Source of the DNA: Planctomycetaceae bacterium
GTDB lineage: Bacteria > Planctomycetota > Planctomycetia > Pirellulales > Pirellulaceae
Direction of reading: 5' to 3'
DNA: 64,000 nucleotides
Assembly (NCBI GenBank): GCA_007694185.1
Contig: RECD01000102.1
Location: 1-64,000, forward strand
This document shows, in pieces, positions 37,121 to 42,870 of the stretch. Below the pieces are notes generated by a model. The model did not search any database, had not been told where the DNA came from, and saw nothing but the letters and a program-made list of their open reading frames with translations. Position 1 is the stretch's first letter. The number at the start of each line of letters is the position of its first letter. The translations under genes and the position numbers were made by a program.

Positions 37121-38008
37121 TTGAGATCCGACAACGAATTGGTTCAGCCACTCAAGTGGCATGGCGGAAAGTTTTACTTGGCAGAGCGGATCATCTCGCT
37201 GATGCCGGAGCACACGCATTACGTCGAGCCGTTTTTCGGCGGTGGGTCGGTGCTGCTCGGTAAATCGCCGGACGGGGTGTCGGAGGTCGTCAATGACGTA
37301 CACCGTGAGTTGACGAACTTTTGGCGAGTCCTGCAGTCGGAAGTTGATTTCGAGCGGTTTAAGCGAATTGTCGAGGCGATGCCGTTTTCGCAAGTGGAGT
37401 GGGACGATTCGCAGCAACCGTCCGAGGACCCTATCTGTTCGGCCGTTCGGTTTTTTGTTCGCTGCCGCCAATCCCGTGCCGGGAAACTCGATTCGTTTGC
37501 AACCCTGAGTCGCAATCGGACCCGCCGTCGGATGAACGAACAGGCATCCGCCTGGATGACTTCTGTGGAGGGATTGCCAGCGGTTTCCCAGCGGCTCCGA
37601 CGTGTCGTCGTGCTCTGTCAGGACGCGACGAAGGTGATCGGGTCTCAAGACGGCCCGGCAACGTTGTTCTACTTGGATCCGCCCTACGTTCACGAGACAA
37701 GGGTCACGACAGCCGACTACGACCACGAGATGACGACGGAGCAACACGTTCGATTGCTGGAGGCGATCGACGCCTGTCAGGGCAAAGTTTTGCTTTCGGG
37801 CTACCCGAATCGGCTGTACGATCAGCGTCTGAGCAACTGGAACGTGGTCGACATCCCGATCGACAACAAAGCGTCTTCAGCCAAAACCAAGCCGCGGATG
37901 GTCGAACGGATTTGGATGAACTTCACTCCCGTCCGCGATGATTCGGTCGCCGACAAATCGCTGAGCACCCCGGCGCCGGATGAGGCTCGCGTCCTTTTCG
38001 AAACTTAG
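37121..38008 (+). CDS. D12-class DNA adenine N6-methyltransferase (Dam-like)
   Basis: 295 residues with the class alpha motif order. KWHGGK at residues 12-17 and VEPFFGGGSV at 35-44 form the AdoMet site, and the catalytic DPPY is at about 186-189. It should methylate adenine in a short, possibly GATC-like, site, but the target cannot be read from sequence. No restriction endonuclease or phage gene is adjacent, so it is an orphan methylase. The start is a TTG with GGA upstream; the next in-frame ATG would remove motif I. The sulfatase gene follows after 10 bases, an odd pairing. Confidence 0.87.
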   Translation: MRSDNELVQPLKWHGGKFYLAERIISLMPEHTHYVEPFFGGGSVLLGKSPDGVSEVVNDVHRELTNFWRVLQSEVDFERFKRIVEAMPFSQVEWDDSQQPSEDPICSAVRFFVRCRQSRAGKLDSFATLSRNRTRRRMNEQASAWMTSVEGLPAVSQRLRRVVVLCQDATKVIGSQDGPATLFYLDPPYVHETRVTTADYDHEMTTEQHVRLLEAIDACQGKVLLSGYPNRLYDQRLSNWNVVDIPIDNKASSAKTKPRMVERIWMNFTPVRDDSVADKSLSTPAPDEARVLFET

Positions 38009-39516: not shown

Positions 39517-40110
39517 CTACCAATCGGCATCGTTCACGCCTTCGACCCAAGCGTCCAAATCCTTCTCCGTGACGGAAGTGGTTTCGGGGATCGCGGCAGC
39601 AGGTTTGGCAGTTTCCGAAGCCGATTGCCGGCCGAGACTTTCCGTTTGGGGCGCGACCACACGAGCGGGTGGGGCGGGGCTGATCATCGACCCCAGAGGC
39701 ACCGCGATCACACGCCGCTCCTCCAACAGTCGTCGCAGCGATTCCGCGACCGCCTCGGCCGAATCGCCGTTGCGAAGGTCAATGACGTACGCCTTGCGCT
39801 GCCCGTTGGCGGGCGTTGGAGGATGAGGATCGAGCCGATGGGGCGCGCGGGCTACGCGGATTCCCGAGCGCTCCAGCGAGGCGAGCACGTCAGCGGCAGC
39901 CCGCCAATCGATCACCGCCAGGTCGCCCGAGAGCGACGACAGGAGTAGCTGCTCGGTTTCACTTGCCTGATCCAAGTCCAGCGAACTGATGATGGCTAAG
40001 TCGAGCCCCGGGGCGCCAAGCAGTCGCATGACCAACGATTCTTGGATGCCCGCTTGGAGCCCAGACAACCGTGGAGATTGGACCATCAAGACGTTTAGTC
40101 GCGCACTCAT
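39517..40110 (-). CDS. unknown protein, last gene of AAA/arrestin-like operon
   Basis: 197 residues. The N-terminal half looks like an alpha/beta fold (VLMVQSPRLSGLQAGIQESLV, LAIISSLDLDQAS, GDLAVIDWRAAADVLASLE); the C-terminal half is low-complexity and ends with an acidic helix. No catalytic motif is evident. The ATG overlaps the AAA ATPase stop as ATGA, so translation is coupled and the product is likely a partner of that ATPase. The N-terminal alternation of strand and helix recalls receiver- or ParA-like folds, but key residues are missing. Confidence 0.75.
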   Translation of the reverse strand: MSARLNVLMVQSPRLSGLQAGIQESLVMRLLGAPGLDLAIISSLDLDQASETEQLLLSSLSGDLAVIDWRAAADVLASLERSGIRVARAPHRLDPHPPTPANGQRKAYVIDLRNGDSAEAVAESLRRLLEERRVIAVPLGSMISPAPPARVVAPQTESLGRQSASETAKPAAAIPETTSVTEKDLDAWVEGVNDADW

Positions 40111-40988
40111 CCGGACGCCCTTCCTGTTTGGCGATGGCCACGCGGCCCCGTGGTGATCGCATCGGTTTGCCGACACAATCGTTCGTAGTCGTCGTACAAG
40201 GCAAACCAGTAGTCGCGAACGTTACGCCGCGAGTGGCCTGACCGGCGGATCGCTTCTGACCGCGAGCGCGCTGCCCGGTTCATCACGGTTTGCTGGTCCC
40301 GAGGCAATCGCTCAAGTTTCTCTTGGGTGAGCCGTTCGACCAAGTCATCGTCCCAGCGGGTCGTCAGGAATGTGGGAATCCCGATTTGCGGGGCGTGGCA
40401 GGTGATCAGCAGGTGGGGAGTGGCCGCTCGGGAATCGGTAAGCGACGGCGGGCGATCGCTTCCGAACTGCCATCGCGTCTTGCTCGATCGGACGCAGGCG
40501 GTCAGCCAACCGCGGGTGACCCAGCCAAGCTGCTCGAACCCGTCGACGACGACGCACTTTGCGGCCACGGGCGTCTCGGTGGAGGGCGAAGCGGCCTCGG
40601 ATCGTTGCGAAGAAGGGGGCGCCTGCCGCGAAAAGGCCGGGTCCATGCCGGAGGGGCGGATTGCCCGTTTCACTTGCTGGACCTGGGATGCCCTGTCCGT
40701 GCCGGGCGTCAGGCGAACCCAAACGATGTCAGCAAAATATTCCCTCAATCGCGGAACCAAGCTGTTAAGTAGCGTCGACTTGCCAGTCCCGTGGGGGCCG
40801 ACGATCGCCGCGGCTCGCTGCCGTAGCAACCGCTCCGACAATCGCTCGGCTACCGACCTCACATCTTGTCCGTCCGCAAAGACATAGCGATTGCGCTGCG
40901 GGGAAACGAATCGAGTGGCGAAGGGATTGGGCGCAGGCGATACGGGGATTTCCCCTGTCGGGCTCGGCTCGTCGAAAGCCGAATTCAC
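40107..40988 (-). CDS. AAA-type ATPase
   Basis: 293 residues. Walker A GPHGTGKST is at 64-72 and a Walker B-like VVVDGFEQL follows at about 150. The arrangement recalls the ExeA/TniB-like AAA group that binds a membrane partner. The C-terminus is a basic helical tail. The GTG start overlaps the upstream stop as GTGA. Position between an arrestin-like protein and an unknown protein, after a membrane protein, suggests that it powers or regulates a membrane assembly; this is inference. Confidence 0.82.
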   Translation of the reverse strand: MNSAFDEPSPTGEIPVSPAPNPFATRFVSPQRNRYVFADGQDVRSVAERLSERLLRQRAAAIVGPHGTGKSTLLNSLVPRLREYFADIVWVRLTPGTDRASQVQQVKRAIRPSGMDPAFSRQAPPSSQRSEAASPSTETPVAAKCVVVDGFEQLGWVTRGWLTACVRSSKTRWQFGSDRPPSLTDSRAATPHLLITCHAPQIGIPTFLTTRWDDDLVERLTQEKLERLPRDQQTVMNRAARSRSEAIRRSGHSRRNVRDYWFALYDDYERLCRQTDAITTGPRGHRQTGRASG

Positions 40989-41452
40989 GTACCGCTCTCA
41001 ATCATGGTGGCAAAAGAGAAGGCCTCGCTGCTCGAGACAATCCCGCTGCGGCGTTCGTGATCCGCAGTGATTTCCCGAATACCGCCGGGGACATGGCCAG
41101 CCAAACGGAACGGCTTCTCGACGACGATCTCACGGCTTTCATCGCAAAACAGGCGAACCCGAACGCACCAACAAATCCTCAACAAGGTGCCCTGGTAACT
41201 CAGGGGGCTGGATGGCAATTCGCAGCGGAAACCATGCCATTGCGACCGATCCAGCCGCCTCAGTTCCGCTTCGTTCCAGTGCTGAAAAGCGTGTACCTGC
41301 AAATCGACATCGCCTTTGCCTTCCGTGAACCAAAGTACGGATGCCTCTAGCCCTGAGAATGATCCTTTGGCAGCGGGGTGAATCCGCCAACGGGCCGATA
41401 GCACCTGGCCAATCCGATACTCACCATCCTCATGGCAGAGATCGACGCTCAA
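40985..41452 (-). CDS. arrestin-like beta-sandwich protein, unknown function
   Basis: About 155 residues, beta-rich: IGQVLSARWRIHPAAKGSF, ASVLWFTEGKGDVDL and SYQGTLLRICWCVRVRLFCD fit a sandwich like the C-terminal part of the preceding membrane protein (which has ITVSGEARPWPSFCQSFPVVVH). The TTG at 41452 overlaps the membrane protein's stop as TTGA. Upstream codons to 41632 in this frame lie inside that gene and look non-coding. No signal peptide, so it is cytoplasmic or attached to the membrane partner. Confidence 0.65.
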   Translation of the reverse strand: MSVDLCHEDGEYRIGQVLSARWRIHPAAKGSFSGLEASVLWFTEGKGDVDLQVHAFQHWNEAELRRLDRSQWHGFRCELPSSPLSYQGTLLRICWCVRVRLFCDESREIVVEKPFRLAGHVPGGIREITADHERRSGIVSSSEAFSFATMIESGT

Positions 41453-42537
41453 CGCGGGTGCCTGATCGGCGGACCGGTAGACGGGTGCACGACGACGGGA
41501 AAGCTTTGGCAGAACGATGGCCACGGACGAGCCTCTCCGCTGACGGTTATTTTCCAGCAGACGGCGTTGTGCGGGCTCCGGAAAGAGTGCATCGCGTCCG
41601 CAGGCAAAGTGACCCGCAATTGTCGCTCCCAAGGGTGGTCCGGGTCAATGGCAAGATCGCGTTCTGTGTGGAGAATTTCGTCATAAGCCCGATGGCGGTC
41701 GATCCGTAAATCGGTCCCTTGCAGATAGGAAGACTCCTCATCGCAGACCAGTTCGATCCGCAAGCGGCGGAGTTGGAGCCGCCCGGCTTGGCGGACGAAC
41801 AGCGTGTAGCGGCTACCGGGCTGCAGCGGATGATCGCTGATCTCGACGATCGTCGCCCCGAGTCCGGCGGTGCGTTTCAGGTTGTCCAGGAAGTGCCGGA
41901 AAGCCCACCAACCGATTCCGGCAAAGGGAAACAGCAAAAATCCGAGCACCCACCGTGGTGACTGGTGTACGAATCCGGAGATGACGATGGCCAGCAAAAC
42001 AAACCAGGTGCCATTCCAGAGGAGGGCCAGGCAGGCCGAAGCGGCCACGGTCCGGGCACGCGGGGAGCCTTCCGAGGCGAGTCGATAGGACTCCACCATC
42101 CCCGGGCTGTCGGTCAGGCCTCGGCCGGGGGGGACATTCGGCAGCGGTCCCCAATCCGCTTCGGCTGGCAGGGCCGGGGCGATGGCGGTCGCCCGAGTCG
42201 CCATCACGGATCGGCGCTCGTCGCTCGCGCCGATCCGCACCAGTCGGTAAGCTAAGCCGCCACCACCGATGACCAGCAGCGCGCAGCCCAGCACCAGCAC
42301 GATCCAAAAGCCGAGGTCGCTGGAAAACGCGTCCTCCGAGATGAAGCCCTCGGGCAAGCCCGTCGATTCCCGTAGCGACGCGCTCGCAAATCGCCTAAAG
42401 CTCACCAAAGCCAAAGTGAAGACGCCGGCCAGGGAGCAGGCGAACAACAACATCGCTTCGCCGACCGCGCCAGAAAAGTTTGCCCCACCGAGCAACCGAC
42501 CGCCCCGTTTTTTCGTCCACGGTTTGGGTAGTCGCAT
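41449..42537 (-). CDS. membrane protein with C-terminal beta-sandwich
   Basis: About 362 residues. Four hydrophobic segments: about 28-50, 74-98, 169-190 and 197-214 from this start. A soluble C-terminal region of about 130 residues follows (LQPGSRYTLFVRQAGRLQLRRL and later), resembling the small arrestin-like protein encoded next. It may be a duplicated domain pair split between a membrane and a soluble protein. The ATG at 42537 has AAGGGA seven bases upstream; a TTG six bases earlier is unlikely. Function unknown. Confidence 0.75.
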   Translation of the reverse strand: MRLPKPWTKKRGGRLLGGANFSGAVGEAMLLFACSLAGVFTLALVSFRRFASASLRESTGLPEGFISEDAFSSDLGFWIVLVLGCALLVIGGGGLAYRLVRIGASDERRSVMATRATAIAPALPAEADWGPLPNVPPGRGLTDSPGMVESYRLASEGSPRARTVAASACLALLWNGTWFVLLAIVISGFVHQSPRWVLGFLLFPFAGIGWWAFRHFLDNLKRTAGLGATIVEISDHPLQPGSRYTLFVRQAGRLQLRRLRIELVCDEESSYLQGTDLRIDRHRAYDEILHTERDLAIDPDHPWERQLRVTLPADAMHSFRSPHNAVCWKITVSGEARPWPSFCQSFPVVVHPSTGPPIRHPR

Positions 42538-42597
42538 CGGCAAGTCCCTTGCTGGCTAAGCCCGGTCAGCGGTGCGTGACGGGATGACGAGGCCGGT

Positions 42598-42870
42598 TCA
42601 GCCCGAAATCGGCTCGTGGCCGGGACGGTTGAACCCCAGTTTTTCGAGTGACGCATAGACCTCGTCGAGCGTCTTTTCGCCGAAATTCGAGATGGCTAGC
42701 AACTGCTTCGGCGTCGAATGGAGCAGGTCGCGGACGGTCAGGATACCCGTTTCCTCCAGACAATTGGTGGTTCTCACCGACAACCCCATCTCGGCGATGC
42801 TCAGATTGAGTCGCTCGCGACGCAACCTGGCCTGTTCCTCGGCCTGACTCAGCGGAATCCGTGTCTTCAT
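42598..42870 (-). CDS. stand-alone RNA polymerase alpha C-terminal domain-like protein
   Basis: 90 residues. Residues 28-80 ([20 protein letters not shown], then [28 protein letters not shown]) match the helix-hairpin-helix fold of the alpha subunit C-terminal domain, including the [10 protein letters not shown] block that in RpoA contacts UP-element DNA and activators. There is no N-terminal assembly domain. A strong GGAGG eight bases before the ATG. It heads the minus-strand run with the AAA operon, 60 bases from the membrane gene. It could act as a DNA-binding decoy, an activator partner or a small nucleic-acid-binding protein. Confidence 0.85.

Follow-up and report, generated by a model that had tools for sequence, protein, structure and literature searches.

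What do five consecutive genes of a Planctomycetaceae bacterium encode, and do their products work together? The genes lie in a stretch of 64,000 nucleotides (positions 1 to 64,000 of contig RECD01000102.1; hereafter the window), where an earlier note made from the sequence alone had described an uncharacterised operon for an alpha-CTD-like protein, a membrane protein, an arrestin-like protein, an AAA ATPase and a fifth protein of no recognised kind. All five genes were confirmed at their positions on the minus strand, and are referred to here as A to E:

42598-42870, minus strand: A, a stand-alone RNA polymerase alpha-CTD-like protein of 90 aa (PF03118 match)
41449-42543, minus strand: B, a protein with four transmembrane helices and an arrestin-fold domain on the predicted cytosolic side, the putative C-half of a split arrestin (predicted structure, profile mapping)
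40985-41452, minus strand: C, a soluble arrestin-fold protein of 155 aa with a TTG start, the putative N-half of the split arrestin (predicted structure, profile mapping)
40107-40988, minus strand: D, a P-loop ATPase of the STAND/NACHT/AAA kind, 293 aa (sequence models, motifs)
39517-40110, minus strand: E, a clade-restricted protein with no fold assigned, a proline-rich linker and an acidic C-terminal motif (conserved loci)

A gap of 54 bp separates A from B, and the B/C, C/D and D/E junctions consist of TTGA, GTGA and ATGA overlaps, respectively. The exact four-base overlap recurs at the B-C junction in 33 of 54 named loci and at the C-D junction in 16 of 54; because they are conserved in relatives, the overlaps are more than chance. 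The proposal that they hold the products in a fixed ratio was not borne out, as such overlaps are a sign of translational coupling only. Although B is annotated with a TTG start at 42543, an ATG at 42537 is a better fit to its relatives and is probably the true start. Beyond E, at 37121-38008 of the window, a gene for a D12-class adenine DNA methyltransferase (PF02086, 2.8e-23) overlaps the start of a sulfatase gene at 37980.

The structure of B predicted with AlphaFold (pLDDT 84.7) contains helices at residues 21-61, 76-104, 162-192 and 198-227, followed by a sandwich at residues 231-353. Its parts are encoded as follows:

42232-42483, minus strand: TM1 and TM2 of B with an extracytoplasmic loop (secondary structure of the model)
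41863-42060, minus strand: TM3-TM4 hairpin of B, immediately before the arrestin domain (model)
41485-41853, minus strand: residues 231-353 of B, a predicted arrestin-fold beta-sandwich on the cytosolic side (predicted structure, structure search, charge pattern)

The N terminus of B is very rich in lysine and arginine, and the loops between helices 1 and 2 and between helices 3 and 4 are net negative. This charge distribution suggests an N-in/C-in topology, which would place both ends of the protein and the sandwich in the cytoplasm.

The arrestin fold is best known from adaptors of eukaryotic membrane receptors. When the B sandwich was compared with the PDB (Foldseek, VIA-align), it matched the N-lobe of ARRDC3 (E 5.6e-9, Z 12.5), as well as TXNIP, VPS26, Rgp1 and Spo0M (5cl2). 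The predicted structure of C (AlphaFold, pLDDT 85.1) gave VPS26A as its best match (Z 12.8) and also matched ARRDC3 (E 8.3e-7). Arrestin-clan proteins made up all 50 listed PDB matches for the B domain and all 50 for C, supporting the earlier description of C as arrestin-like. The C-terminal region of B and the whole of C had also been thought to be related beta-sandwiches. Both are indeed arrestin folds by predicted structure, while the B and C profiles, aligned directly with hhalign, showed no significant similarity, so that their kinship rests on structure and on single-chain relatives. In sequence searches, neither B nor C of the window matched a Pfam arrestin-clan model above the curated cut-off, and B, C and E yielded nothing useful in Pfam, NCBIfam or PADLOC. 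Across the C family, 13 of 39 members touch Arrestin_C (weakly, 4.2e-5 at best), six touch Arrestin_N and two touch Vps26.

The single-chain relatives occur in other planctomycetes, where a single open frame encodes a domain resembling C, then a membrane hairpin, then a domain resembling B. These proteins exceed the Pfam cut-offs for Arrestin_N (best 7.8e-18), Arrestin_C (7.9e-13) and Spo0M (3.5e-11). A profile built from them, run on the window genome, placed B at profile positions 190-345 (1e-11) and C at profile positions 5-104 (1.7e-10). Because of this mapping, we assign C as the probable N-half and B as the probable membrane-bound C-half of a split arrestin. The TM3-TM4 hairpin of B has the same position as the membrane hairpin that lies between the two lobes of the single-chain relatives. 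There is also a natural B-C fusion, a single open frame with a linker, in one genome (L046/L088). When B-only and C-only sequences were aligned to this fusion with MAFFT, the B sandwich fell on the C part in every setting; because of this misplacement, B and C were modelled separately.

The window genome also carries a complete single-chain paralogue of 491 aa on another contig (L229:8397-9869, G000:C239; 5e-48), where it adjoins genes that by eye resemble an ABC-2 exporter, with a permease and an ABC ATPase. At three loci (L207, L209 and L212), a frame for a D-like ATPase lies directly upstream of the single-chain arrestin gene. Another locus (L210:4345-7594) contains a tandem pair of single-chain arrestins with extended C termini. 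A search of plasmids for the single-chain arrestin returned no match.

The fourth gene had been read as an AAA ATPase. That it encodes a P-loop ATPase held up; its sequence points to a STAND/NACHT/AAA-like protein with a NACHT-like Walker B motif. Two motifs stand out:

40773-40799, minus strand: Walker A motif of D, GPHGTGKST (sequence; invariant G64, H66, G67, G69 and K70)
40527-40556, minus strand: Walker B-like motif of D, CVVVDGFEQL (sequence; invariant D149)

Among 52 full-length D relatives, 51 have the Walker A motif and 46 a Walker B of the form DGxE. The latter fits the STAND/NACHT form hhhhDG(h)D/E and, as in STAND and NACHT NTPases, is followed by a hydrophobic strand with T-x-H. 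Matches of D to STAND, NACHT and AAA models are weak to moderate, with the window D above the nSTAND1 cut-off (30.4 versus 27.1 bits). Unlike STAND and NACHT NTPases, however, D proteins are about 200-290 aa long and have no repeat or effector domain that Pfam detects; only about 140 residues follow the Walker B motif, and these contain no further Pfam domain.

Are the split arrestin and the ATPase inherited together? By kinship, the window genome falls within a family of the Pirellulales. Its relatives, 60 genomes spread over about 20 families, carried B in 57 cases, and within the Pirellulales B is near-universal and mostly single-copy. C adjoined B in 40 of the 41 loci examined, with D following in most, and the B-C-D module spans the Pirellulales and extends further. 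The earlier note had asked whether the gene order is conserved outside the strain; the B-C-D order is kept across about 20 families. Among 294 genomes of the phylum, B was found in 34, C in 32 and both in 31 (hypergeometric 2e-37), and D (E 1e-9) in 23, of which 22 also have B and C (6e-25); both probabilities take related genomes as independent and thus overstate the significance. Many of the genomes compared are metagenome bins.

The association does not depend on the genes being neighbours. In each of six Pirellulales genomes with a D-free B-C locus, D lies elsewhere in the genome, and in three Planctomycetaceae genomes D is apart from B-C, on another contig or megabases away. D was absent from all 13 listed Planctomycetaceae without B-C. 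That B, C and D stay together in genomes even when unlinked is the strongest indication that they share a function, and it supports the earlier view of the ATPase as a partner gene. The anatomy, as read from sequence and models, is nearly certain: an arrestin-fold domain of B behind a four-helix anchor, a soluble C, the two corresponding to the halves of a single-chain arrestin, and a co-inherited D with an intact P-loop. That B, C and D work as a single unit, with a bacterial arrestin divided between two proteins and an ATPase alongside, has in our estimate an even chance of being correct.

Two further occurrences of the gene set were seen. One genome (G016; L249:2523-4728, G016:C15) has a second, divergent but complete B-C-D cassette with four-base overlaps in addition to the usual one. 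A B-C-D-like set is also present in a bin labelled Acidimicrobiia (L129:2467-4216); if the bin is correct, the system extends past the Planctomycetota.

The distribution of the genes bears on the idea that they form a defence or conflict system based on a STAND NTPase, as the similarity of D to STAND and NACHT proteins might suggest. Almost every genome of the order has the genes, mostly in one copy, with none of the expected patchiness. A PADLOC search returned nothing for B, C or E; for D it gave P-loop matches, all of them weak. The conserved clusters contain no defence neighbours. With neither patchiness nor markers, we rejected a defence role as extremely improbable.

The earlier note had treated all five genes as one unit. 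The support was for a B-C-D core, with A as a frequent neighbour and E confined to the window's clade. A matches PF03118 strongly (E 1.5e-20), and this C-terminal domain is its sole match, with no N-terminal dimerisation domain of RNA polymerase alpha. Of 42 named loci, 24 carry it upstream of B in the same orientation, and in 15 the distance is no more than 175 bp. E occurs in nine loci only, all from the window's clade, and has no Pfam or PDB match. At its C terminus (window 39517-39600), a conserved acidic peptide, LDxLVDxLNDxDW, follows the proline-rich linker and is possibly a docking motif.

Two other genes recur near D or E in relatives. One encodes F, a secreted protein rich in proline and cysteine that has the motifs YVPxTxYRT...VPVTxYRPV and no Pfam match. 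The other encodes a small HisKA_3/HATPase histidine kinase, which is downstream of E in five close relatives and, at another locus (L247), comes immediately after an unlinked D. Their locations are:

L244:6783-7850, L245:7580-8770, L246:4491-5453, L050:5382-6494 and others: F
L036:11473-12147, L033, L034, L035, L041 and L247:5456-6085: histidine kinase

F is near D in 13 loci, and three genomes in which D is no longer linked to B-C still have the two genes side by side, as might be expected if D worked with F in the export or assembly of surface proteins. However, at E 1e-5 no F was detected either in the window genome or in two searched Planctomycetaceae that have B, C and D, and the adjacency of F and D may reflect inherited order. 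We consider such an export role very improbable. The lack of a hit in the window genome also led us to reject F as a core part of the system. A, E, F and the histidine kinase are accessory.

Another possible explanation is that the B-C-D set is a transmembrane signalling switch. According to this explanation, the outside loop of B, or a domain within it, would sense a stimulus, the arrestin halves would act as a scaffold and a STAND-like D would switch, passing the signal to a kinase or regulator. Several observations are consistent with such a device: DUF3592 (PF12158) occupies the first outside loop in 17 of 40 B relatives, D resembles STAND/NACHT NTPases, a histidine kinase accompanies some loci and an alpha-CTD protein is encoded upstream. 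However, most loci, among them that of the window, have no such kinase, and Pfam detected in D no long sensor or repeat region of the sort usual in STAND proteins. Moreover, Pfam did not find DUF3592 in the window B, and the domain is missing in the window's clade. On balance a signalling switch appears somewhat unlikely.

Comparison with known systems bears on the remaining explanations. The arrestin clan is known in bacteria and archaea through Spo0M (PMC2515105), which in B. subtilis interacts with division, cytoskeletal and membrane proteins and whose loss alters cell shape (PMC5325327). Like the planctomycete proteins, Spo0M (Bacillus subtilis; PF07070) has a bacterial arrestin fold; the single-chain relatives exceed the cut-off of its model, and 5cl2 is among the top matches of the B sandwich. 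Unlike them, it is one chain without a membrane anchor, whereas the planctomycete lobes are divided between two proteins, of which one is in the membrane, and an ATPase is co-inherited. B-C-D could be an organiser of division or envelope shape, in which a membrane arrestin positions division or envelope proteins and D regulates it. The near-universal presence of the genes in the Pirellulales would suit such a function, as would the structural and Pfam kinship with Spo0M and the behaviour of that protein in B. subtilis. However, neither B nor C of the window matches PF07070, and there is no division gene among the conserved neighbours. We regard this explanation as quite unlikely.

Both halves also share their fold with the eukaryotic arrestins and alpha-arrestins, such as ARRDC3 and TXNIP (Z about 10-12.5), but those are single-chain, soluble adaptors without an anchor. 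VPS26, a retromer subunit and the best structural match of C, similarly presents two arrestin lobes at a membrane. It acts with VPS35 and VPS29, however, neither of which is encoded in the operon, and D has no retromer counterpart. The earlier note had recognised no described system with this content. We likewise found, in the literature searched (arrestins in planctomycetes, bacterial arrestins and DUF3592; few subscription journals covered), no description of an arrestin divided into two proteins, anchored in the membrane and inherited with an ATPase, and no ATPase partner of any bacterial arrestin.

That the genes may specify an assembly or trafficking machine, as had been suggested, is a reasonable conjecture from the arrestin fold and the membrane anchor. 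Over both the signalling switch and the Spo0M-like organiser we tentatively prefer an arrestin adaptor under ATP control, serving to recruit, sort or hold membrane proteins, and give this role a little less than an even chance. In such an adaptor, C would dock on B to restore the two lobes of an arrestin at the membrane's inner face. Like eukaryotic arrestins and VPS26, the assembled B-C arrestin would bind other membrane proteins through their cytosolic parts, and D would in turn bind this assembly and load, release or switch it at the expense of ATP. Where relatives carry DUF3592, this domain on the outside might sense or bind something and relay this inward. A more specific version of the adaptor, in which splitting a membrane-hairpin arrestin produced an ATP-driven, membrane-anchored machine that sorts or gathers inner-membrane proteins and is functionally comparable to the eukaryotic arrestin and VPS26 adaptors, appears fairly unlikely.

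Arrestin-type proteins are central membrane adaptors in eukaryotes, and their bacterial kin, represented by Spo0M, are little understood. A conserved, nearly universal arrestin-ATPase set in the Pirellulales provides defined genes with which to probe the roles of the arrestin fold in bacteria. The setting is a phylum with debated complex membranes, and the question is open to ordinary genetics in a cultured relative.
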